NCBI GenBank assembly: GCA_003153775.1
Contig: PMBI01000083.1
Location: 1-64,000, forward strand
Reading direction: 5' to 3'
DNA from: Syntrophaceae bacterium
GTDB lineage: Bacteria; Desulfobacterota; Syntrophia; Syntrophales; UBA2185
Length of the DNA: 64,000 nucleotides
Shown: positions 3,458 through 39,573 of the stretch, piece by piece
How positions within the stretch are numbered: the stretch's first letter is position 1
How the letters are laid out: every line of letters begins with the position of its first letter
Translations under genes and position numbers: made by a program
The notes under the pieces: model-generated
Databases searched by the model: none
Seen by the model: the letters and a program-made list of their open reading frames with translations, nothing else
Told to the model about the DNA's origin: nothing

Positions 3458-5032
3458 TTACACAACATGCCCGGTATCAGTCATAATTCCGCGGGGCGAG
3501 ATGGTTGATCCCCGACGAAGGGTGCTAATGAAGTAGTTCACGATTTCCTCGTCAAATTGACGATTAACATTTCTTTTCAACTCGGCGACCGCTGCTTCTA
3601 CGTCCATAGCTTTTCGGTACGGTCGGTTGTTGGTCATGGCGTCAAATGCATCCGCAACTGCCAGCATCCTCGAAAAAAGAGGAATATTGGTGCCCGCGAG
3701 GCCATCAGGATAACCATTACCATCCCACCGCTCATGGTGATGGCGGATTATTAATCTTTCCGTATCCAGGATGGGAAGTGGCTTCAAGATATTTTCTCCA
3801 ATCACGGGGTGGTTCTTTATAACATCGAATTCGTAAGTAGTGAGTCGGCCGGGTTTAAGCAGGATGTCGTCAGGTATGGAGATTTTTCCTATGTCATGAA
3901 GAGTTGCCGCTATCTTCAGCGATTCGATTTCGCTCGGGGAGCAACTCATTGCTTCTGCCGTTTTTATAACAATATCCGTTACCCTCATGGAGTGCTCTTC
4001 CGTGTAATAATCGCGGGCTTGAATGGAAGCAACGAGCGATTGAAAGGTACTCAAGAGATTCGTGTACAGACTTTCGTACAGAAGCCTATTCTCGATATTG
4101 AGAGACGCCCTGTTGGCGATACTCTGGATATAATAAAGATCTCTTTCCGTGTAGACATGTTCGTTGCTTTTTCCGGAAAGAGCTATGATGCCGAATACCT
4201 GGTCCCTAATTTTCAAGGGCGAACAGATGACAGAAGAATATGCCGTGTTCTTGATGAGATTTCTCAGCAAAGGTTCCTTCCTGCGGACGGTGTCTCTGAG
4301 TATGGAATGTAAGGACGGTATGATTACGCTCTTGAAAAAAGTCTGTGAGACTCCTTTCACGACTACAGCATCAAATTCCTGATGATCCTTATCGTACAAG
4401 AGTATAGAACATGCTTCGCCGCCGACGACCTTCAGAGCAAGATCAACCATTTCCTGAAAGATTTCGTCATTGTTTTTCGTAAGCTCGATCTTGTCATATA
4501 TATAGCTGCGAGTAGATAAGTCGCTTATCTTGGTAGTTAAGGAAGTGGCCGTCGTCTGCTTGTCGTATTCACCGAGAATTGTCTTTGCCCGTAAATAGAC
4601 ATCAACCTTATATAAGAGATCATCAATATTGAACGGCTTTGCCAGGAAGTCTACCGCGCCCGTCTTCATCGCGGAAACGGTCAGTCCGATGGTCGGGTAG
4701 GCCGTAATAAGAATCACGTGCGTCGTCGGTTTGATTTCCCTGATCTTGTCGAGGAGATCCATGCCGTTCATGCCGGGCATCATGACATCGCATATGACCA
4801 TATCAAAATGGTTTTCTCCCAGCCTTTCCAGGCCTTCAACGCCGTCTGACGCCTCGGTAACTGCATAGGCGCCCGCCTGACATATGGCATCTACGACAAG
4901 CGATCTGGTGCCGATGTCGTCATCGACTACGAGAATGGATTTTCTTTCTGAACTTACTTCATTCGTACTTAACATATGCGCTCTATCATGGGCATTGTCT
5001 GCGGAAAAAGGTAAATGATCCCGCTCAGTCAT
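3458..5032 (-). CDS. Response regulator with GAF and HD-GYP domains (probable cyclic di-GMP phosphodiesterase)
   Basis: 524 residues. A receiver domain starts near residue 32 with the acidic triad DDD and the phospho-acceptor Asp82 in VICDVMMPGM; a GAF-like domain spans about 180-320; the C-terminal half is an HD-GYP domain with LHDIGK, HHHERWDGNGYP and the usual following conserved segment. HD-GYP domains hydrolyse cyclic di-GMP, lowering the signal that represses motility. The start overlaps by eight bases the stop of the small FlgM-like gene, implying coupled translation from the sigma-28 promoter at 5281-5307. This would make it a late flagellar gene. The gene converges on the MotE-like gene; the 220 bases between hold only a weak inverted repeat (3430-3448) without a T run. 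Confidence 0.9.
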   Translation of the reverse strand: MTERDHLPFSADNAHDRAHMLSTNEVSSERKSILVVDDDIGTRSLVVDAICQAGAYAVTEASDGVEGLERLGENHFDMVICDVMMPGMNGMDLLDKIREIKPTTHVILITAYPTIGLTVSAMKTGAVDFLAKPFNIDDLLYKVDVYLRAKTILGEYDKQTTATSLTTKISDLSTRSYIYDKIELTKNNDEIFQEMVDLALKVVGGEACSILLYDKDHQEFDAVVVKGVSQTFFKSVIIPSLHSILRDTVRRKEPLLRNLIKNTAYSSVICSPLKIRDQVFGIIALSGKSNEHVYTERDLYYIQSIANRASLNIENRLLYESLYTNLLSTFQSLVASIQARDYYTEEHSMRVTDIVIKTAEAMSCSPSEIESLKIAATLHDIGKISIPDDILLKPGRLTTYEFDVIKNHPVIGENILKPLPILDTERLIIRHHHERWDGNGYPDGLAGTNIPLFSRMLAVADAFDAMTNNRPYRKAMDVEAAVAELKRNVNRQFDEEIVNYFISTLRRGSTISPRGIMTDTGHVV

Positions 5033-5473: not shown

Positions 5474-6853
5474 ATGAAGAATGCAAAGATATTGATTGCT
5501 GAGGACAATGAACTAAGCAGGGAGAACCTATCCGAGCTTCTGAAAAGTCATGGCTGTGAGGTCACGGCTGTCGAAGACGGCAGGCAAGCCAGGGATGCCT
5601 TTATCGAAGATAAATACGACCTCGTGATAACTGATTTGAAGATGCCGAATATGGATGGTCTTCAGCTTCTGGAGTTCATCCAGGAAATCAGTCCGGAGAA
5701 TATCGTAATTATAATTACCGGCCACGGCACTATCAATACGGCCGTAGCGGCGATAAAGCTTGGCGCTTTTGACTATATCACCAAACCACTAAAAGATGAT
5801 CTTGTGACACTGACGATTGAAAGGGCGTTATCCTACGCAAAACTGAGGCAGGAAAATATATCCCTCAAGAGAAGTTTGAAAAAGCGATATGATTTCGATA
5901 ATATGATCGGCTATAGCGATGGCATGAAAAAGATCTTTGATACGATTGAAAAAGTCGCTACTTCCGATAGTACGGTCATGATCTACGGCGAAAGCGGCAC
6001 AGGCAAAGAATTAGTTGCCAAGGCCGTACATTTCAACAGTGAAAGAATAAATTTTCCGCTTGTTGCCGTAAACTGCGGCGCTATTCCCGAAGAGTTGCTG
6101 GAAAGTGAGTTATTCGGCCACGAGAAAGGCGCCTTTACGGGCGCACTACGCACCAGAATCGGCCGATTTGAATTAGCCAATGGCGGGACGATATTTCTGG
6201 ATGAGATCGGTGATATGAGTCCTGCACTGCAGGTGAAGGTGTTAAGAGTGCTTCAGGAGAAGCAATTTGAGCGCATCGGAGGAGTGAAGACGCTGCAGGT
6301 TGATGTAAGAATTATCGCCGCAACCAACCAGGATTTGGAAAAGGCGATAGAGGAAAAAAGATTTCGGGAAGATCTGTTCTACCGTATAAATGTTATACCT
6401 ATAGATCTGCCGCCTCTGAGGGAAAGAAAGGTTGACATCCCGATCTTGGCTAACCACTTCCTCTCGAAATTCAACAAACTAAAGAGAAAGGGCGTGGTTC
6501 GGATCACCCCGGAAGCGATGGAGTACCTGCTTAAGTATTCCTGGCCTGGAAATGTCAGAGAACTCGAAAATTTAATCGAGATGCTCGTTGTCCTAAAAGA
6601 GGAAGGTGAAATAGAGGTTCAAGACCTTCCGGAAAAAATAGGAATGGCGCACTCCCATGGCGTTGTCAAGAGCGGTGTAGAAATAACGGATGAAGGGATC
6701 AATTATAATGCCTACGTTGATCAGCTTGAAAAGGATTTGCTTTCGAGAGCCCTGGAAAAGGCCGGCGGAGCAAAAAACAAGGCTGCAAAATTACTGAACC
6801 TAAATAGAACAACTTTTGTTGAGAAATTGAAGAGATTCAAAATTGGTCAGTAG
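5474..6853 (+). CDS. NtrC-family sigma-54-dependent response regulator
   Basis: 459 residues with the full NtrC layout: receiver domain 1-120 with phospho-acceptor Asp54 (VITDLKMP), AAA+ domain from about 150 with Walker A GESGTGKE, the sigma-54 contact loop GAFTGA near 219 and a Walker B of type IFLDEIGD, then a Fis-type helix-turn-helix at the C-terminus (NKAAKLLNLNRTTFVEKLKRF). It activates transcription from sigma-54 promoters. No kinase gene is adjacent; it stands alone between the HD-GYP gene and the TPR-kinase-regulator operon. It may be the upper-level regulator that switches on the operon starting at 7284, but this is inferred from position only. Confidence 0.9.
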   Translation: MKNAKILIAEDNELSRENLSELLKSHGCEVTAVEDGRQARDAFIEDKYDLVITDLKMPNMDGLQLLEFIQEISPENIVIIITGHGTINTAVAAIKLGAFDYITKPLKDDLVTLTIERALSYAKLRQENISLKRSLKKRYDFDNMIGYSDGMKKIFDTIEKVATSDSTVMIYGESGTGKELVAKAVHFNSERINFPLVAVNCGAIPEELLESELFGHEKGAFTGALRTRIGRFELANGGTIFLDEIGDMSPALQVKVLRVLQEKQFERIGGVKTLQVDVRIIAATNQDLEKAIEEKRFREDLFYRINVIPIDLPPLRERKVDIPILANHFLSKFNKLKRKGVVRITPEAMEYLLKYSWPGNVRELENLIEMLVVLKEEGEIEVQDLPEKIGMAHSHGVVKSGVEITDEGINYNAYVDQLEKDLLSRALEKAGGAKNKAAKLLNLNRTTFVEKLKRFKIGQ

Positions 6854-20083: not shown

Positions 20084-20115
20084 CATGCCCATTCTTAAAA
20101 ATGCCAGAGGATAAA

Positions 20116-21684
20116 ATGGATTCTTCAATTGCCGAGGTGACATTGAAAGGAAGCCCAAGTGATCAGCCCGCTGGTCAGGGTCTCTCCTCTATTAAGAAAA
20201 GGGAAAAGGGAAATGCTATCACAGCAGACATTGCCGCCCTGATCGGGGCGCCTGGCTCATTTGCAAGTTTGCTCAGCAAGAAAGGTGATGGCGGCAAAGA
20301 GGGCGCCGTAAGCCCGCAGGCAGAATCAGCAGCCGGAAAGGATGAGGTGGGAAAGGCTTCAGGTGGCGGCATTAACAGCGGCCGAGAATCTTTCTTGCTA
20401 AAGACGGCGATAGGACATGCGGGAATAGAGGCTGTTGCACTCGGAGCGGAGACATCATCTGAGAAGAATGCCAATACTGTTCCTGCAATTCCGACAACAG
20501 GAGATGTTTCAGAGATAAAAATGAGAGGGAAATGGAATCCTGAGACCGCAGCAAAGACCCAAATCATCAAGGAGGGAGAAGTCACGGGTGAAGACGATGC
20601 GGTGAATCCGTCGAAGGGGTCCTCAACTCAGGGAGGGGAGGCTTTACGCAGCGGATCCGTTTCAGAACAAGGGAAGAGGATATTATTGAATGAGGGAATA
20701 AGTGAATTGGGCAATGCAGAAAAGTTGCCTTCAGGGGACGCAAAGCCTCCGGATGGTGAAGCAGGCAGAGAGTCGGCAGCATTGTCAACAGACGCATTGA
20801 AGGGAAACAGCTTTACAAAGAAGAGCGCAGCCGACGGAGCGAGAGTTCTTTCCGGTGATGAAGTGGGAGATCAGAAAATCCGAGGCGGCCAAGACTTGCT
20901 GAAAGGATCGGACGTTAAAGGATCAAGCATCAGCAACGTTTCACCGGATTCCAAGGGACGCGAGATGTCGTCAATAAAGGAAGGCGCCCAATACTCTGCC
21001 GACTTTGTGAAAGACAATGTGACTTCCATCCGTCAGATAGAGACGGAAAATGAGAAGGTAGATAATCTTAGGAATCTCTCCGCTGCGGGTCTCAAATCGG
21101 AAAGACCTCTTCAAAACGGGGCTGAAGATATACAGGCAGGCAAGACCGATTCGCCACTGCCATCAACACAGACTGATTTTTCCATGGTGAATGGCATTTG
21201 GAGCGATGTAAGAACAAGCGTGAATGATAGATTCGCTGCCCCTCCCGTATTTCAGGAAATTGCCGGCCAAATCATAGACGGCGCATCGAATATGCTGATG
21301 AAAGGTTCCAGCAGGATCGTCATCACCTTGGAGCCGCCCAACCTCGGCACATTGAATATGGATGTCAGGGTCCAGCACGATATGGTCAGGATGGTGTTGA
21401 TTGCTGATAACAATGAGGTTAAGCAGGTCTTGCACGCCAATCTCGACCAGCTGAAAACAGCGCTGCAGGGTCAGGGGTTAAACATCGACCGTTTCGATGT
21501 CCTCGTTCATGACAGATCGTATGAGGGAAACCAGGGATTTCAGCCGGGAGGGGGCGCCCTCTTTGACGGCGGTCGAGGCGGAAGGAGCGATACAAAAGGC
21601 GATGGCTTGCCGTCTCAGATGTTGCCGTCCGGAGGAAATGAAATAAATGAACCATATTTGGGAATTATAAGTTTATTTGTGTAG
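20116..21684 (+). CDS. fliK: Flagellar hook-length control protein FliK
   Basis: 522 residues from ATG 20116, which has AGAGG five bases upstream; an ATG at 20101 in frame lies too close to the sigma-54 start site to carry a ribosome site. The first 370 residues are low-complexity, rich in Ser, Gly, Lys and Glu, as in the ruler part of FliK. The C-terminal Flg_hook domain (about 390-490) contains ITLEPPNLGTLNMDVRVQHDMVRMVLIADNNEVKQVL. FliK measures the hook and triggers the export switch through FlhB. It is followed by flgD and flgE, the hook genes it controls. A second FliK-like protein is encoded at 37810. Confidence 0.9.
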   Translation: MDSSIAEVTLKGSPSDQPAGQGLSSIKKREKGNAITADIAALIGAPGSFASLLSKKGDGGKEGAVSPQAESAAGKDEVGKASGGGINSGRESFLLKTAIGHAGIEAVALGAETSSEKNANTVPAIPTTGDVSEIKMRGKWNPETAAKTQIIKEGEVTGEDDAVNPSKGSSTQGGEALRSGSVSEQGKRILLNEGISELGNAEKLPSGDAKPPDGEAGRESAALSTDALKGNSFTKKSAADGARVLSGDEVGDQKIRGGQDLLKGSDVKGSSISNVSPDSKGREMSSIKEGAQYSADFVKDNVTSIRQIETENEKVDNLRNLSAAGLKSERPLQNGAEDIQAGKTDSPLPSTQTDFSMVNGIWSDVRTSVNDRFAAPPVFQEIAGQIIDGASNMLMKGSSRIVITLEPPNLGTLNMDVRVQHDMVRMVLIADNNEVKQVLHANLDQLKTALQGQGLNIDRFDVLVHDRSYEGNQGFQPGGGALFDGGRGGRSDTKGDGLPSQMLPSGGNEINEPYLGIISLFV

Positions 21685-24272: not shown

Positions 24273-24288
24273 TGGTATATTATTTGCT
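24273..24288 (+). promoter_or_regulatory. Sigma-54 promoter of the fliL-fliMNOPQR operon
   Basis: TGGTATATTATTTGCT with GG (24274-24275) and GC (24286-24287) ten bases apart, about 75 bases before fliL. The region between the flgE terminator and this promoter holds no gene; a short palindrome GGGTTATACCC (24202-24212) differs in length from the sites before flgB, fliK and flgF. Confidence 0.85.
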
Positions 24289-24364: not shown

Positions 24365-24850
24365 ATGGCAAGAGAAGAAAAGGAAGAGCCGGCCGTAGAA
24401 GATGTTCCGCAAAAGAAGAAATTACCTATCAAGAAACTTATCATTATAGGTGTTGCCGCGTTGATCCTGGTGGGCGGCGGCACCGGAGGGGCTATCTACT
24501 ATAAGAAGATGTCCGAAAAGAAGGAGCAGGCGCAGCAGCAGGCGCCGGTGAGCGCAGTATGGCCTATGGAGCCTTTTATTGTGAACATACTTGATCAGGG
24601 CACCGATCGGTATTTGAAGATTATTATAGAGCTCGACATTTCGGACAAGAACTGCATCGCAGAGCTTAACCAGTTGAAGCCAAAACTGAGGGACAATGTC
24701 TTGGACCTTCTCTCATCAAAATCCTATAAGGATATTGTGGATATTAATGGCAAGCAGCGCCTGCGCGACGAGATACTGATGCGTCTCAACACATTTCTCA
24801 CGGGAGGAAAAATCGTCAAGGTTTATTTCACGGAATTCGTCGTCCAATAG
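24365..24850 (+). CDS. fliL: Flagellar basal body-associated protein FliL
   Basis: 161 residues: a short charged cytoplasmic tail, one membrane helix (about 25-45), a Gln/Lys linker, and the periplasmic FliL domain with YLKIIIELDISD, LRDNVLDLLSSKSYKDI and a C-terminal VYFTEFVVQ. FliL rings surround the stator and support torque. It is the first gene of the fliLMNOPQR group. A second FliL-like gene is at 34912. Confidence 0.92.
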   Translation: MAREEKEEPAVEDVPQKKKLPIKKLIIIGVAALILVGGGTGGAIYYKKMSEKKEQAQQQAPVSAVWPMEPFIVNILDQGTDRYLKIIIELDISDKNCIAELNQLKPKLRDNVLDLLSSKSYKDIVDINGKQRLRDEILMRLNTFLTGGKIVKVYFTEFVVQ

Positions 24851-28912: not shown

Positions 28913-29989
28913 ATGGCAGACAACGATAAAGACCAGGAAAAAACAGAGCAGGCAACACCGAGAAGAAAGGAAGAGGCAAGAAAAAAGGGGCAGGTTGCAA
29001 AAAGTCAGGAAGTGGCCTCGGTTGCGATCCTGCTTGCCTGTCTTACATATTTTAATTTTGACTCAGCACGCCTGGTCAGGAAGATGATGGAAAACTTAAG
29101 CGGATTCCTGAGATCATCCGGGACCCTGCTTATCAACACCGATAATATTCAGTCGCTTGCCGTCAATTGGACGTATGAATTCTTTATCCTTATTGCGCCG
29201 TTACTTCTGACGGTCTTTATCGCGGGACTCTTAGCCAACTTTGTCCAGGTCGGATTCTTGTTTTCGACAGAAGCAATCGCACCACAGTTCTCCAAGATTG
29301 ATCCTTTCAAAGGGTTTCAGAGACTGTTTTCCCTGAAATCATTTGCCGAACTCATCAAGAATATAATAAAGCTGTGCGTCGTAAGTTATGTCGCCTATGT
29401 CACGGTAAAGGGTGAAATAGACGGACTTCCTTCCCTGATGGATAGCAGTGTAGGGGATATAACAGTCTATATGGGGGCGGTTTCCTTCAAAATCATCTTG
29501 AGGACCTCGTGGGTGCTGGTCGTCCTGGCGGTTCTTGATTATGTGTACCAGCGTTGGGAGTATGAGAAGGGACTCAGGATGTCAAGGCAGGAGATAAAGG
29601 ATGAATTCAGACAGACCGAGGGAGACCCTCTGATAAAGGCGAGGATAAAGCGGATTCAGAGGGAAATGGCCAGGAAGAGGATGATGGCCAGCGTGCCGAA
29701 GGCGGACGTAGTGATCACAAACCCTGACCACATCGCAGTGGCGTTGGTGTATGATCAAATGAAGATGTTTGCTCCTGTTGTTGTGGCCAAAGGAGCAGGT
29801 TTTCTCGCTGAAAGGATAAGAGAGCTGGCAAGGCAAAACAATGTGCCCGTGATTGAGAACAAGCCTTTGGCACAGGTATTGTATAGAATGGTGAAGGTGG
29901 AAGAGACAATACCGGAGAATCTATACAGGGCCGTAGCCGAGGTGCTGGCTTATATTTACGGCTTGAAGGAAAAAAGGGTGGCGGTGTAA
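28913..29989 (+). CDS. flhB: Flagellar export switch protein FlhB, with NPDH in place of NPTH
   Basis: 358 residues: a basic N-terminus (EKTEQATPRRKEEARKKGQVAKS), four membrane helices, and the cytoplasmic switch domain. The self-cleavage loop is NPDH (Asn270-Pro271-Asp272-His273) rather than the common NPTH; Asn and Pro, between which the chain is cut, are kept. FlhB controls the change from rod/hook to filament export together with FliK. The downstream genes flhA, flhF, flhG and fliA are tightly spaced and probably form one operon. A free C-terminal FlhB-like domain is encoded at 39082. Confidence 0.95.
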   Translation: MADNDKDQEKTEQATPRRKEEARKKGQVAKSQEVASVAILLACLTYFNFDSARLVRKMMENLSGFLRSSGTLLINTDNIQSLAVNWTYEFFILIAPLLLTVFIAGLLANFVQVGFLFSTEAIAPQFSKIDPFKGFQRLFSLKSFAELIKNIIKLCVVSYVAYVTVKGEIDGLPSLMDSSVGDITVYMGAVSFKIILRTSWVLVVLAVLDYVYQRWEYEKGLRMSRQEIKDEFRQTEGDPLIKARIKRIQREMARKRMMASVPKADVVITNPDHIAVALVYDQMKMFAPVVVAKGAGFLAERIRELARQNNVPVIENKPLAQVLYRMVKVEETIPENLYRAVAEVLAYIYGLKEKRVAV

Positions 29990-34911: not shown

Positions 34912-35451
34912 ATGGTGCGAAAAGTAGATCTTGATCTCTTGGATGAATTGGATGTTCCCGCTGCAGAGGAGCCTCATGAGGAAGGGGAGACGGCGGGAAG
35001 AAAAAAAGGCTGGAAATGGCTGACGAGAAAAAAGCTTATCGTCACGGCCGTCCTTTTCACCTTCCTTTGTGTTATCGGCGTCTCTTTCATGATATTTCCT
35101 GCAAGGAATGATTCGCATATCGACTCCGGGAGAGAACTTGCAGAGGCGAGACCAATACCGGAAAATGTCGAGACCCTTGATAATTTCATAATTGACCTCA
35201 CGGACGAACAGGGGCACTACCGGGTGCTTGTCTGTGATATTACGCTCGTGATGAATCCGGACAAGAATATCTCAGCAAACAAACTGGATACAAGAAAGAA
35301 GGCATATGATGCCTTAAAGAATAAGGGCAAGTATGCGCTGATATCGTCAAAATCCTACAGCATCGTGAAAAAGGAAATGCGGGATGAATTAGACCGCGTC
35401 CTCGGCGGAGGAATAAAGGAAGTATATTTTACGAGATTTATGTTACTATGA
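34912..35451 (+). CDS. Second FliL-like membrane protein
   Basis: 179 residues: acidic cytoplasmic start, one membrane helix (about 43-62), then a periplasmic domain with LDNFIIDLTDEQGHYRVLVCDITLVMN and a FliL-like end (ISSKSYSIVKKEMRDELDRVLGGGIKEVYFTRFML). The end KEVYFTRFML parallels KVYFTEFVV of FliL at 24365. It is 32 bases after fliA and probably in the same transcript. A paralogue of FliL may work at the stator or the export gate; its exact role is unknown. A GC hairpin (35529-35548) follows it. Confidence 0.75.
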   Translation: MVRKVDLDLLDELDVPAAEEPHEEGETAGRKKGWKWLTRKKLIVTAVLFTFLCVIGVSFMIFPARNDSHIDSGRELAEARPIPENVETLDNFIIDLTDEQGHYRVLVCDITLVMNPDKNISANKLDTRKKAYDALKNKGKYALISSKSYSIVKKEMRDELDRVLGGGIKEVYFTRFMLL

Positions 35452-35596
35452 AATCTCGTCTCCATGTAATTGCTGAATTCGGCAGCGGGTGAATGCCGGA
35501 TGATACTGTTCGTTAAGAATTGAAAATTCTCCGCACTTTGCCGCGGAGGGCTTCAATAAATATCAGTTTTATCAGCTAACCGGAAGGAATGACGCC

Positions 35597-35929
35597 ATGA
35601 AGAATGTTCTTCTTGCTCTGCTGTTTATTTTCGTGAATATTTCTTTGAGTCCATGCTATGCATTGACGCCCGATCAGATCATAAAGTTAAAGAAGGCGGG
35701 CGTGAGCGATAAAACAATTCAAATGATGCTGGAACAGGAGAGGGATGCAAGGCAGGAGAATCCTTCCGACCAGATGGGCGTGAGGGAAGTGAAGGACAAG
35801 GAAGGCAACGTTGTTACGATATACTCTACCGGCCGTCCAGCAAAAGAAAGCCCAGGTGATGCCGAAGAGGTAAAAGCGGAGAAGGCCTGGAAGATGTTGC
35901 AGAACACGATCATCAATAACAGGAAATGA
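35597..35929 (+). CDS. Small secreted protein of unknown function
   Basis: 110 residues. A clear signal peptide (about 1-22, ending near CYA) is followed by LTPDQIIKLKKAGVSDKTIQMMLEQE, a helical motif often found in short secreted proteins that end or start with SHOCT-like helices, then a polar stretch (KDKEGNVVTIYSTGRP). AAGGAA lies nine bases before the ATG. It is four bases before the degenerate kinase gene. No function can be assigned. Confidence 0.65.
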   Translation: MKNVLLALLFIFVNISLSPCYALTPDQIIKLKKAGVSDKTIQMMLEQERDARQENPSDQMGVREVKDKEGNVVTIYSTGRPAKESPGDAEEVKAEKAWKMLQNTIINNRK

Positions 35930-35933
35930 GATT

Positions 35934-36791
35934 GTGTTTGGCGAAGACCGTAAAGATCAGGGAACAGGGGAAATGAAGCCCGCTGATCAGAAAGAAAATA
36001 AGAATATGCATTACCAGGAAATTCAGAGCTTTCTGGAGAAATCGTTTCAGGAAACATTTACCGAAGAACTGGTGCCCGGCATAGTTCATAATTTTGCTAA
36101 TCCCTTAAACGGCATCATGGGGCGCTCCAGGCTGCTGCAGAGAAAACTAATGGATATCATGAAGAGAGCTGATGCGGAAAGTGATACGTCTAATCAGGAG
36201 AGCAACAAAAAACTGGTCCGTGACGTTGACTCCATCGCGCGTGAAGCTGACAGACTCTCCGGACTTCTTCAGACCGTCATGGGGAAATTTTGTGCCATCG
36301 GCGATCGGACCGCACAAAAAGTAAACCTGTCAGAACTTATTGAACTCGAGATGAGATTTTTCGATTTTTATCTGGATTTCAAGCATAGCGTCAAGAAGAC
36401 TCTCCAGCTCGACAGAGAACTACCGGAGGTCAGAGGAGCCCCGGCTGACTATTCCCTGGCCTTTTCAACATTGATCAGGTACGCGACGGTTGCCATGAAG
36501 GAAAGTGCCACGAAGGAACTATATGTTTCAACACAACTTGAAAATGGACAGGTATGCGTGAAGGTCCAGAATCGTGGGCTTCCCATTTCCGATAATCTCA
36601 AGAGACTATTGCTCGACGAAGTGCAGGGTCCTGCTTCTTCTCCGGAAGGAACCGGAGAAGGTGCTCTGCATTGCGCTTTTTCGCTGTTGAGAAAATGGGG
36701 CGCCGGCTTTGACATAACAAGCGAGGAAGGTTTGAATACTATAAGCGTATTGATCCCTTTTTACCAGGCGAAACGCCAATACGGAGACTAA
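35934..36791 (+). CDS. Histidine kinase-like protein with degenerate ATP-binding domain
   Basis: 285 residues from GTG 35934 (an ATG at 35973 is in frame). It has a phospho-acceptor helix with His52 in GIVHNFANPLNGIMGR and a dimerisation helix pair, then a reduced ATPase-like domain. The N-box (TLIRYATVAM) lacks its Asn, the G1 box reads VQNRGLP without the Asp, and the G2 box is GTGEGALHCAFSLL. It has no sensor or receiver domain. Such a protein may act as a phosphotransferase like ChpT rather than as a kinase. It is in the accessory block after fliA. Confidence 0.65.
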   Translation: MFGEDRKDQGTGEMKPADQKENKNMHYQEIQSFLEKSFQETFTEELVPGIVHNFANPLNGIMGRSRLLQRKLMDIMKRADAESDTSNQESNKKLVRDVDSIAREADRLSGLLQTVMGKFCAIGDRTAQKVNLSELIELEMRFFDFYLDFKHSVKKTLQLDRELPEVRGAPADYSLAFSTLIRYATVAMKESATKELYVSTQLENGQVCVKVQNRGLPISDNLKRLLLDEVQGPASSPEGTGEGALHCAFSLLRKWGAGFDITSEEGLNTISVLIPFYQAKRQYGD

Positions 36792-36816
36792 AGTTAAAGG
36801 GCTGTTATGACGATTA
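36789..36816 (+). promoter_or_regulatory. Possible sigma-28 promoter before the accessory genes at 37 kb
   Basis: TAAA (36789-36792), 16 bases, then GACGATTA, six of eight matches to GCCGATAA and the same 16-base spacing as the promoters of flgM, flaG, fliD and fliC. The -35 box overlaps the stop codon of the kinase-like gene. Confidence 0.4.
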
Positions 36817-36842
36817 ATGATATACATACTTCTTTATGTTGT

Positions 36843-36958
36843 ATTGCCGCAGCAAACCCGGGTGAGTTACACGGGGAAGAATGGTAAGAGGGCAATCCGT
36901 ATCTTCTTGATCGCGCATCCTGAGAGACGGATCGCTGAACCTACGGGAAACGCAGGTT
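36843..36958 (+). promoter_or_regulatory. Possible structured leader before the 37-kb genes
   Basis: In the 185 bases before the gene at 37002, ATTGCC (36843-36848) pairs with GGCAAT (36891-36896) around an inner GTG/CAC hairpin, ATCCGT (36895-36900) can pair with ACGGAT (36927-36932), and AACCTACG (36938-36945) with CGCAGGTT (36951-36958, two mismatches) is followed by TT. The order of alternative stems and a T-tailed hairpin would suit an attenuator, but no known riboswitch class is recognised. Confidence 0.25.
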
Positions 36959-37001
36959 TTGCCCAGGTTTCTCACGATTAAGAGAGGGGAGTTGAAGAGT
37001 C

Positions 37002-37322
37002 GTGCTCAGGCCCGTTGATTTACAGCAAATACTGACTCAGTCAAATTCCATGGAGCGTGTCCAACAGACGCAGCAGCAGCATCCGGACATGCAGCAGAGA
37101 TATTTCAGTGTTCAGTTGAGTGAGGAGACGAAGCACCTGAAAGAGGCTGTAAAGAATTCTGAAGAGACGGAAAAGTCAAAAATAAGAGGTGAGGAGGAGA
37201 AGGAAAGACGCCAGAAGAAAATGAAATCCGAGGCAGAAGGCGCAGAAGAGATGGAAATGAAGCAAGAAACCGGAGATGCGGATGACCCTGAACAGGGGGG
37301 TCTGATCGATATAAAGGTCTGA
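37002..37322 (+). CDS. Small charged flagellar-cluster protein of unknown function
   Basis: 106 residues from GTG 37002. The first 45 residues contain VDLQQILTQSNSMERVQQTQQQHPDMQQRYFSVQL, and the rest is nearly all Lys, Glu, Arg and Gln, a single long charged helix. The stop is two bases before the next gene, so the two are translated together. No known domain is recognised; the position among flagellar genes suggests an accessory role in motility. Confidence 0.6.
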   Translation: MLRPVDLQQILTQSNSMERVQQTQQQHPDMQQRYFSVQLSEETKHLKEAVKNSEETEKSKIRGEEEKERRQKKMKSEAEGAEEMEMKQETGDADDPEQGGLIDIKV

Positions 37323-37323
37323 T

Positions 37324-37794
37324 ATGAGCGTGAACCTACTACTTTTCAGCCTGCTGCTTGCTGATGTAATCCTGTGTCTCGCAATTATAATTCTAATTGT
37401 CATCGTCAACAGGGAAGTCAAGAAGAGACGGGGGGGACTTGATGAAAATTCCCTCATGGAATTCAGGAACCTGCTTGGCGAGTCTCAGGTCTCTACGAAC
37501 CATCTCCTGGAAGTAATGAACGAAAGCAGGAAGGCATTAAAAGAGATCGCCTATATCCTGGACGAAAAAGAAGGCAAGTTGAGAACCTTGGTTGAAGAAT
37601 CAAGGATTGAATATAAAAAGCTCTTGGCCGCTGTTCCCCGTGCCGATAAGGATAATCTGGATAACAGGTATGAGCAGGTCATTTCCCTGGTAAAGCAGGG
37701 TCTATCCAGGAAAGAAATATCGCAAAGATTGGAACTGACGGAAGGGGAGATAGATCTGATCATCGATCTCGATAGCACCAGGCACAAGCCTTAA
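37324..37794 (+). CDS. Membrane-anchored protein, DUF2802-like
   Basis: 156 residues: an N-terminal membrane helix (about 3-27), a coiled coil (about 40-105) and a C-terminal helix-turn-helix-like end (YEQVISLVKQGLSRKEISQRLELTEGEIDLIIDL). This layout and end are those of the DUF2802 family often found beside fliA or flhF in Gram-negative flagellar clusters. The function of the family is not known. It lies between the small charged protein and the FliK-like gene. Confidence 0.7.
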   Translation: MSVNLLLFSLLLADVILCLAIIILIVIVNREVKKRRGGLDENSLMEFRNLLGESQVSTNHLLEVMNESRKALKEIAYILDEKEGKLRTLVEESRIEYKKLLAAVPRADKDNLDNRYEQVISLVKQGLSRKEISQRLELTEGEIDLIIDLDSTRHKP

Positions 37795-37809
37795 ATATAA
37801 GAATATCTG

Positions 37810-38961
37810 ATGTCTTTCATTTTTGTTCCGACAATTTCCAATCCGAAGCTAAATCCAGCACAGATACACGGCAAAAATCCCATCACTTTTCCCGGCATAT
37901 CGATTGGTGAAATACTGGAAGCCGGTATTATCGATAAAATGGGTGACGAGAAGATGCTGATAACGCTCAAGGGCGTCAGTATGCAGGCGGATTCCGAGGT
38001 GCAATTAAATGCCGGCGACAGGATCCAGGTGAAGGTGGAAACCGTTCATCCGCAGTTAGTCTTGCGCATTGTCGAAGGAGGTTTCTCGGAGGAATCCGAT
38101 CTTGCAAGCTACCTGAAATGGCACAGGTCAAATCCTGATGCCCTGTCAAACATGATGACAGAGGCTATAAGGCAATTCAATTCAGCCGATCTCGGCAAAC
38201 TCTTGCGTTATCTGCCCAGGGCGGATTTTCAGAAAATATTCACTCTTTTGAAATCACTGCTCTATTCAGCGGAGACGAAGGGCAGTAATTTTCTCGCAGA
38301 CTATCTTAGCAAGCTCGGCCTCACCATGGAGAGCCAGTTGAGGAAGGTTGCCGAGGGAAGATCGAATATCGGCAACGGCGATATTCAAGCTGCAAATCTG
38401 AAGACCCTATTGACGGAGTTGTCTTCTGATCTTCATAATCTGCTCATGAACCAGGACTCCCTTGACCGTGAAGAAAAGATAGCGCTCGCCGGTCTCTCTA
38501 AGCACGTTGATTCATCCATCAAGACAATTGAATCCCAACAGATTATTAATATCGTTTTGCAAGAGGCCGAGAACAAGTATCTCTTCCAGATCCCGATCGT
38601 ATTCCCGGACGGTATAAGAAAGGGCGACATATTTGTGGAATATGACCGTAGTTCCAAAAATGAGGGAGAGAAAGGTCAATATCGCATAATCTTCTTTTTG
38701 AGCATGGATATTCTCGGCGACATGATAATCAATGCAGAGTTGAAAGGAGATAAGATCGACTGTGTTCTCAAATGTGCGGATAAGAATGTATGTGATCTTA
38801 TTTCGTCCTCACTCATAGAACTTCGGAAAAGTCTTCTCGCTCTCGGCTGTAAGATCGACACGTTAAACTGTGTTAAAGGACTGGATTTAGAAAAAGAAAA
38901 GTTAGACTATTATCAGGACCGTGCAGTGTTTAACAGTGAGGTAATCGATCTCTTTGCCTAA
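37810..38961 (+). CDS. FliK-like protein (second hook-length-control-type protein)
   Basis: 383 residues. The N-terminal part has a compact beta-rich segment (MLITLKGVSMQADSEVQLNAGDRIQVKVE), the middle is helical, and the C-terminal 110 residues follow the Flg_hook pattern: FVEYDR…GQYRIIFFLSMDILGDMIINAEL, then IDCVLKCADKNVCDLISSSLIELRKSLLALGCKIDTLNCV. Unlike FliK at 20116 it has no long low-complexity ruler. Together with the FlhB-like FlhX immediately after, it may form an alternative switch pair. The FliK relation is judged by eye and moderate. Confidence 0.6.
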   Translation: MSFIFVPTISNPKLNPAQIHGKNPITFPGISIGEILEAGIIDKMGDEKMLITLKGVSMQADSEVQLNAGDRIQVKVETVHPQLVLRIVEGGFSEESDLASYLKWHRSNPDALSNMMTEAIRQFNSADLGKLLRYLPRADFQKIFTLLKSLLYSAETKGSNFLADYLSKLGLTMESQLRKVAEGRSNIGNGDIQAANLKTLLTELSSDLHNLLMNQDSLDREEKIALAGLSKHVDSSIKTIESQQIINIVLQEAENKYLFQIPIVFPDGIRKGDIFVEYDRSSKNEGEKGQYRIIFFLSMDILGDMIINAELKGDKIDCVLKCADKNVCDLISSSLIELRKSLLALGCKIDTLNCVKGLDLEKEKLDYYQDRAVFNSEVIDLFA

Positions 38962-39081
38962 ATGGGTGTGAAGCGTCTTCCTGAAACTTGCTTTGTTTTG
39001 TGGTCAAGCCGTCTTCTGGCTTAAGGAAGGGACGCCCGCTTTTAAGAAAATTTCGCAATTTAGTGTATACGGAAAATCGTA

Positions 39082-39378
39082 ATGGCAAAAAAAGATGAAA
39101 AGATACGCGTGGCGGCGGCTATTAAGTATGACCCCGCGAAGGACGCGGCGCCGGTGCTTGCTGCTAAAGGTCGGGGCCTTGTCGCGGAAAAAATTATCGA
39201 TATAGCGAAGAAAAACAGGATACCTATAAAGGAAGATCCGAATCTCGTCCAGATTTTGAGTAAACTTGAAATCGACGAGCAGATCCCGCCCGTCTTGTAC
39301 AAAGCTGTTGCTGAGATACTTGCCTTTGTCTATTCTCTCAATGAGAAGGCAAGAAGGGAAAATTTTTCCCGGCCATAA
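39082..39378 (+). CDS. FlhX: free-standing FlhB C-terminal domain homologue
   Basis: 98 residues that align with the end of FlhB after its cleavage site: AAAIKYDPAKDAAPVLAAKGRGLVAEKIIDIAKKNRIPIKEDPNLVQILSKLEIDEQIPPVLYKAVAEILAFVYSLNEK-type sequence, without any membrane helices and without NPTH. Such proteins (FlhX, YlqH) can replace or assist the FlhB C-terminal fragment in export switching. It follows the FliK-like gene by 120 bases that include a short hairpin (39005-39022). The last 15 bases overlap the palindrome described at 39356. Confidence 0.85.
   Translation: MAKKDEKIRVAAAIKYDPAKDAAPVLAAKGRGLVAEKIIDIAKKNRIPIKEDPNLVQILSKLEIDEQIPPVLYKAVAEILAFVYSLNEKARRENFSRP
39356..39370. promoter_or_regulatory. 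Palindromic candidate enhancer site upstream of flgF
   Basis: GGGAAAATTTTTCCC is a perfect inverted repeat with one central base, at the 3' end of the flhX gene. Its centre lies 196 bases upstream of the GG of the flgF sigma-54 promoter, almost the same distance as the matching palindrome upstream of flgB (194). See the sites at 12524 and 19981. Confidence 0.55.
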
Positions 39379-39557: not shown

Positions 39558-39573
39558 TGGCATGTGAATTGCA
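39558..39573 (+). promoter_or_regulatory. Sigma-54 promoter of the flgF-flgG-flgAHIJ operon
   Basis: TGGCATGTGAATTGCA with GG (39559-39560) and GC (39571-39572) ten bases apart; the start site would be near 39584, about 23 bases before the flgF start codon, with GGAGG in between. Confidence 0.85.

Follow-up and report, generated by a model that had tools for sequence, protein, structure and literature searches.

How the flagellar export gate changes its substrate is a long-standing question. Stand-alone homologues of the C-terminal domain of FlhB, called FlhX, are already known: HP1575 of Helicobacter pylori is, we presume, such an FlhX and a member of the FlhB-like family TIGR00789, YlqH of Bacillus subtilis is presumably of the same type by position, and the H. 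pylori homologue has reportedly been described, in a title, as a 'spare part'. Few accounts seem to exist of the conserved pairing of FlhX with a FliK-like partner gene; literature searches on FlhX, YlqG/YlqH and FlhB/FliK paralogues turned up none, except that 'flhX-fliK' is mentioned for Nitratiruptor (PMC9321776). In Salmonella, according to a recent report, late secretion is locked by the removal of both Fluke and the FlhB C-terminal cytoplasmic domain (FlhB-CCD), and FlhB-CCD vanishes in a FliK-dependent manner as the hook is completed (PMC13344023, 2026). Here we describe a 64,000-nucleotide stretch (the window; positions 1 to 64,000 of contig PMBI01000083.1, assembly GCA_003153775.1) of a Syntrophaceae bacterium, in which a FliK-like gene (FliK2) and FlhX end a block of seven frames, on one strand, between fliA and flgF (flgF assigned by profile), within a large cluster of flagellar genes. 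Rather than one system, the block is a patchwork inserted between these two genes, and its FliK2-FlhX core is a candidate for a conserved auxiliary specificity switch.

A reading of the letters alone (the sequence-only reading) had placed seven frames directly 3' of fliA, and all seven are found at their positions on a single strand (Table 1). It had also seen in them altered second copies of core parts, which agrees with the canonical FliK (FliK1), FliL and FlhB that we find elsewhere in the window. FlhX matches the FlhB family (PF01312) only over positions 261-335, the last 75 of the family, with 75.3 bits against a cut-off of 24.4, and thus is homologous to the C-terminal cytoplasmic domain and lacks the membrane domain. 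Its homology starts at the cleavage point, and the autocleavage motif NPTH is absent from it and from every FlhX frame of the order Syntrophales, the one frame with NPTH being a fragment of a canonical FlhB that is cut. Of the 87 residues in FlhB chain 3b1s_B, the FlhX profile covers 3-84. The best NCBIfam match is TIGR00789 with 99.2 bits, under the curated cut-off of 117.35, and we therefore name the protein FlhX-type and not a member of that family.

FliK2 is assigned to the FliK family because of Flg_hook (PF02120) matches in its relatives and because its family profile aligns to canonical FliK, there to the C-terminal domain only (residues 395-471). Flg_hook matches fall in the FliK2 frame of 28 of 60 genomes and exceed the cut-off in 14 of those 28, so that the family placement made by the sequence-only reading is supported by way of relatives, the window protein itself being sub-threshold. 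With FliK1 it shares only this last domain, in which most FliK2 members have 'MDxLG' at the place of the 'PPNLG' of FliK1. The protein had been described as FliK-like without the ruler region; its composition does argue against a long disordered ruler, and the description is corrected in that FliK2 has, as far as a low-confidence model indicates, a beta-type domain of its own at the N-terminus and then a helical middle. The N-terminal half is less disorder-prone in FliK2 than in FliK1 (TOP-IDP mean 0.074 vs 0.179). Because a compact N-terminal half replaces the long disordered ruler, FliK2 is most likely a cytoplasmic partner and not an exported length gauge. Among its relatives are frames of about 740 residues: in a 740-residue frame (G155:C1:2996427-2998568) the N-terminal domain is matched three times, and in a 741-residue frame (G084:C12:342697-344052) the domain is matched twice.

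Within the order, 60 genomes were sampled. FliK2 is present in 33 of them and a stand-alone FlhX in 32, every one of which also has FliK2; the sole FliK2 genome without FlhX (G045) has its FliK2 itself cut by a contig end. The neighbourhoods of all 34 listed FliK2 matches minus the window's own (33 stretches, 32 genomes) show the two genes adjacent in 31, and the remaining two are cut by contig ends. FlhB-type frames occur in 32 of the 60 genomes, FlhB in 29 of the 32 genomes with FlhX, and canonical FliK in 34, including 32 of the 33 with FliK2. Three genomes (G001, G008, G041) have FlhB and neither FliK2 nor FlhX, and since their contigs stop inside or just before the block, a true loss is not separable from a gap. 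The gene order kept in these stretches is fliA, FliL2, the optional secreted-looking protein, a HisKA-like protein (HK), a small charged protein, a DUF6115 protein, FliK2, FlhX and flgF. Per-gene counts are lower bounds, as many stretches end early: of the 33, at least 31 have FlhX, 30 the DUF6115 protein, 29 the charged protein, 28 FliL2, 27 HK and 10 the secreted-looking protein. Because this order is kept across the Syntrophales, the block is more than a chance arrangement.

The pair recurs beyond the order. In a phylum-wide draw of 198 genomes, 74 stand-alone FlhX rows were picked from the FlhX search, and 52 of these 74 have a same-strand match to the FliK2 profile just upstream; the count becomes 53 of 72 when one diverged FliK2 found by hand (G233) is added and two contig-end loci are dropped. 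In Bacillota (149 genomes), the 30 FlhX loci with the highest scores were examined, and 27 have such a match directly upstream; these loci are a biased choice and include one (Scopulibacillus) that is itself in the FliK2 profile. The pair is also found at a Treponema locus and at an Olavius-symbiont locus, and a search of genome contigs with FlhX returned 5 loci only. The order in Scopulibacillus is rnhB-FliK2-FlhX-sucC (gene names by eye), a non-flagellar neighbourhood that we take to be the place of ylqG-ylqH in B. subtilis. The divergence of the two proteins is coupled beyond that of FlhA and FlgI (distance coupling 0.38 over 15 loci, reached by 0 of 300 permutations). That FliK2 and FlhX, homologues of both substrate-switch proteins, behave as a unit is supported.

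Several observations weigh against reading this unit as a switch. In the Syntrophales, every genome in which this region is assembled has the pair, and its co-occurrence there partly reflects shared ancestry. Across the wider phylum, FliK2 is missing upstream of about one quarter of the stand-alone FlhX genes, several of which have plainly unrelated neighbours; SLT, DUF4139, RNase E/G and a queuosine mannosyltransferase are among the genes next to them, so that an adjacent FliK2 is not needed for FlhX to act. One genus, g59, has its FliK2-type genes close to FlhB and away from FlhX. The distance coupling is weak evidence because the control pair FliK2-FlhF is also coupled (0.33, reached by 4 of 300 permutations). 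The window FliK2 scores 24.1 bits for Flg_hook, under the cut-off of 29.8, and its fold model is of low confidence (mean predicted local distance difference test score 50), with weak PDB matches that are suggestive at most.

In the mechanism that we propose, FlhX would be a ready-made FlhB-CCD, which the parent FlhB frees only by autocleavage, and it would dock where that domain sits on the export gate, cleavage-free, as an exchangeable lock. FliK2, as opposed to an exported gauge, would be its cytoplasmic partner and would load, hold or remove it, and through the two the specificity switch from hook to filament would be tuned or reset. On the homology, the pairing and the Salmonella finding, we give about an even chance to a composite block whose FliK2-FlhX core is an auxiliary specificity switch. 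FlhX might re-lock the gate, substitute for FlhB-CCD or compete with it, three actions that the sequence does not separate. A bolder version, which we regard as tentative and unlikely, would have a ruler-free second switch across phyla, with FlhX re-arming the gate after FliK has ejected the cleaved domain of FlhB itself and FliK2 as its dedicated loader or ejector, such that the hook-to-filament switch, considered irreversible, could be reset or held. A free FlhB-CCD copy travelling with its own FliK-like protein is a natural test case for the FliK-removal model, the question being whether FlhX takes the place of the lock that was ejected.

The same pair may be read in other ways. FlhX and FliK2 could be back-up or neutral paralogues, with FlhX rescuing a damaged FlhB and FliK2 merely accompanying it; the FlhX genes without an adjacent FliK2 and the 'spare part' reportedly named in the H. 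pylori title would suit this, whereas an adjacency kept over two phyla and at the Treponema locus is hard to explain without selection, and we think the back-up role unlikely. Alternatively, the two genes could form a second complete length-control pair, for the rod or for another hook length, in which FliK2 is exported like FliK. FliK2 does keep the C-terminal domain of FliK, and its N-terminal domain matches repeatedly in G155 (three times) and G084 (twice), as a ruler of variable length might, yet canonical FliK is already present in nearly all FliK2 genomes and the N-terminal half of FliK2 is compact by composition, which makes a second ruler distinctly improbable. Least probable, and in our view very unlikely, is the proposal of the sequence-only reading that the whole block acts as one, either as a second substrate-specificity switch or as a checkpoint on export, and receives two-component input through the kinase-like protein. 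Its order is kept in most of the 33 stretches (HK in 27, FliL2 in 28, DUF6115 in 30 and the charged protein in 29), and the sigma-54-like sites at 24273 and 39558 would place it in one operon; against this, FliL2-HK-DUF6115 is relocated in two genomes, FliK2-FlhX lies outside any flagellar cluster in Scopulibacillus, and HK is missing from one genome, is kept in four without an FlhB match, and diverges uncoupled from FliK2 and FlhX. Of the proposed second switch the FliK2-FlhX unit is left as a candidate, and the whole block as one system fails.

The details of these separations are as follows. In G006 and G043, the locus is reduced to fliA-charged-FliK2-FlhX-flgF, and FliL2-HK-DUF6115 lie together in another cluster, downstream of a FliI-like gene (FliI by eye). 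On these split modules we rejected the whole block as a unit, and the expectation that its parts always occur together fails in G006, G043 and Scopulibacillus. The kinase-like protein was rightly called degenerate: its HisKA (26.0 bits, cut-off 26.9) and HATPase_c (16.2 bits, cut-off 26.4) matches are both below cut-off, and its ATP-binding boxes are, by eye, lost, which leaves it outside the histidine kinases. The phosphoacceptor box is HNFANPL in 26 of 28 frames, HNFASPL in one and HDFASPL in one. Active HisKA kinases have an acidic residue after the histidine; at that position 27 of the 28 frames have Asn. At a guess, the protein could serve in phosphotransfer or as a phosphatase in the manner of ChpT.

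HK occurs in 35 of the 60 genomes (E <= 1e-20), is absent from some genomes with FliK2, is missing in G023 and is present in G002, G003, G016 and G021, all without an FlhB match. Its distance coupling with FliK2 is 0.13, reached by 63 of 300 permutations (15 loci). The link that the sequence-only reading drew from this protein to two-component control of the block is not supported by the distribution and the uncoupled divergence, and we reject HK for now as a regulator of FliK2-FlhX. We had also considered its presence in G002 and G003 without FlhB as a sign of an independent role and dropped this, as HK looks like the relic of a deleted cluster; in G003 the cluster looks deleted because a fused remnant frame lies beside HK. 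This 78-residue frame (L143:7295-7528) starts like the sigma-54 regulator at 5474 of the window, by eye and by a partial Response_reg match, and ends like the small secreted-looking protein. The cluster has apparently been lost in species of the same genus (L143:7295-7528, L142:8515-8709), with the regulator/secreted fusion and a FliL2 remnant by an intact HK. Elsewhere, HK adjoins a CheY-like regulator in G047, a REC-GAF-HD regulator in G002, G003, G021 and G043, and a sigma-54 regulator in G016. The window holds a homologue of the REC-GAF-HD neighbour, a response regulator at 3458-5032 (-), which is a possible HK partner.

Three parts of the block are local lineage additions: FliL2, the small protein that looks secreted and the kinase-dead HK. 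FliL2 belongs to the FliL family (PF03748) by score, and the small protein at 35597-35929 had no family above cut-off in family searches, its 'secreted' label resting on a hydrophobic N-terminus seen by eye. Apart from this label and the FliK2 description, the gene names given earlier were mostly right. The charged protein, to which family searches likewise gave no name, and the DUF2802/DUF6115 protein are companions of fliA that stand apart from these and are conserved widely. The former, as well as its counterparts in Bacillota loci L103-L130, ends in IDIKV, and in both phyla its gene stays next to that of the DUF6115/FipA protein, in Bacillota at 20 of 30 loci.

The DUF2802/DUF6115 protein scores 37.8 bits for DUF6115 (cut-off 27) and 33.9 for DUF2802 (cut-off 33.5), and its G126, E142 and L145 are invariant in 20 aligned homologues, which together place it with FipA. 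All 30 frames from the Syntrophales have the G/E/L motif, as do 29 of 30 from Bacillota and 6 of 7 in a second Bacillota set. DUF6115 occurs in 95 of 149 Bacillota genomes, in 74 above cut-off, and fliA lies within a short stretch at 15 of 30 such loci. One locus, L134, has the order cheC-cheD-fliA-DUF6115-rpsB-tsf (names except fliA by eye), which we take to be the sigD-swrB-rpsB order of B. subtilis; its protein at the fliA-x-rpsB place matches the family profile with an E-value of 9e-6 and an hhalign probability of 55%, and keeps the motif. PF19610 has matches in B. subtilis at the level of the species, and a weak DUF6115-profile match in Scopulibacillus was set aside as a LuxR-type regulator. 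Because of the shared profile, the motif and the gene position of SwrB in L134, FipA and SwrB are likely relatives, and the block suggests a relation between two proteins studied separately. In FipA, three residues are 100% conserved and two of them are required for FlhF binding (PMC11620751); SwrB is reported to activate the export apparatus through FliP and is stated in the same paper to be conserved only in Bacillus (PMC4526659). The idea of an export checkpoint is supported in another sense, since the family holds FipA and a protein at the place of SwrB, both implicated in licensing or activating assembly, and the window protein probably licenses assembly or export by way of FlhF or the FliP gate.

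Canonical FlhB of the window has NPDH at its autocleavage site instead of NPTH. The same change is seen in L038, L043, G001 (L141) and G008 (L144), with NPEH in L056 and NPTR in L067. As Asn-Pro is retained, cleavage is probably kept; one may speculate that an altered site makes a ready-cut spare more useful. The exact sigma-54-like pattern TGGYATN5TTGC, picked post hoc once a looser scan had been made, has six matches in the window (7284, 12726, 20068, 24273, 39558 and 60177) against 0.35 expected, and four of the six sites precede flagellar operon starts (the first rod gene, fliK1, fliL1 and flgF). From the sites at 24273 and 39558, the block is probably the tail of a fliL1-to-FlhX operon, and its products would be made alongside the export apparatus instead of the flgF unit. 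Scans for sigma-70 promoters and terminators gave no enrichment over shuffles, and a PHROGs search returned nothing.

Table 1. Features of the block and related elements in the window.
Feature	Positions	Strand	Remarks
FliL2, second FliL-type membrane protein	34912..35451	+	PF03748 29.9 bits, cut-off 24.6
Small protein, hydrophobic N-terminus, optional in block	35597..35929	+	present in 10/33 neighbourhood stretches (lower bound)
Kinase-dead HisKA (DHp) protein (HK)	35934..36791	+	HNFANPL phosphoacceptor box kept, ATP-binding boxes lost
Small charged protein, DUF6115/FipA companion in two phyla	37002..37322	+	at least 29/33 stretches; 20/30 Bacillota loci
FipA/SwrB-type protein (DUF2802/DUF6115), likely	37324..37794	+	N-terminal hydrophobic segment, coiled-coil-like middle, helix-turn-helix-like C-terminal domain
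FliK2 (YlqG-type)	37810..38961	+	N-terminal beta-type domain, helical middle (low-confidence model), FliK C-terminal switch domain
FlhX, stand-alone homologue of post-cleavage FlhB C-terminal domain	39082..39378	+	without membrane part, without NPTH
Canonical FliK (FliK1)	20101..21684	+	PF02120 67.3 bits
Canonical FliL (fliL1)	24365..24850	+	PF03748 84.5 bits
Canonical FlhB	28913..29989	+	cleavage motif NPDH, not NPTH
Sigma-54-like site 5' of fliL1; probable start of operon ending with FlhX	24273..24287	+	pattern match
Sigma-54-like site 5' of flgF; probable start of next transcription unit	39558..39572	+	pattern match

Compared with known systems, FlhX of the window resembles the TIGR00789 FlhB-like family in being a stand-alone FlhB C-terminal domain without the membrane part and without NPTH; it differs in its sub-cut-off score and in being embedded, next to a FliK2 of its own, in the main operon for the flagellum. 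The likeness to YlqG-YlqH of B. subtilis is by position of the Scopulibacillus homologues, and the Scopulibacillus pair lies outside a flagellar operon whereas the window pair lies inside one. FliK2 has the C-terminal switch domain of FliK (PF02120), but its N-terminal half is compact, without a disordered ruler, and the window protein is sub-threshold for the family. The HK protein is like ChpT and other kinase-dead HisKA proteins in being of DHp type, with the histidine kept and the ATPase lobe decayed; ChpT is among its Foldseek matches, and as the fold model is of low confidence, these PDB matches are suggestive only. The likeness to SwrB is by position, through the L134 protein, which matches the family profile and keeps the motif at low similarity. 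With FipA, the DUF2802/DUF6115 protein shares the spacing of the G/E/L motif (G110/E126/L129 in FipA, G126/E142/L145 in the window; PMC11620751), as well as a hydrophobic N-terminus and a gene downstream of flhF-flhG, and it differs from FipA in lying five genes after fliA and in belonging to another phylum.

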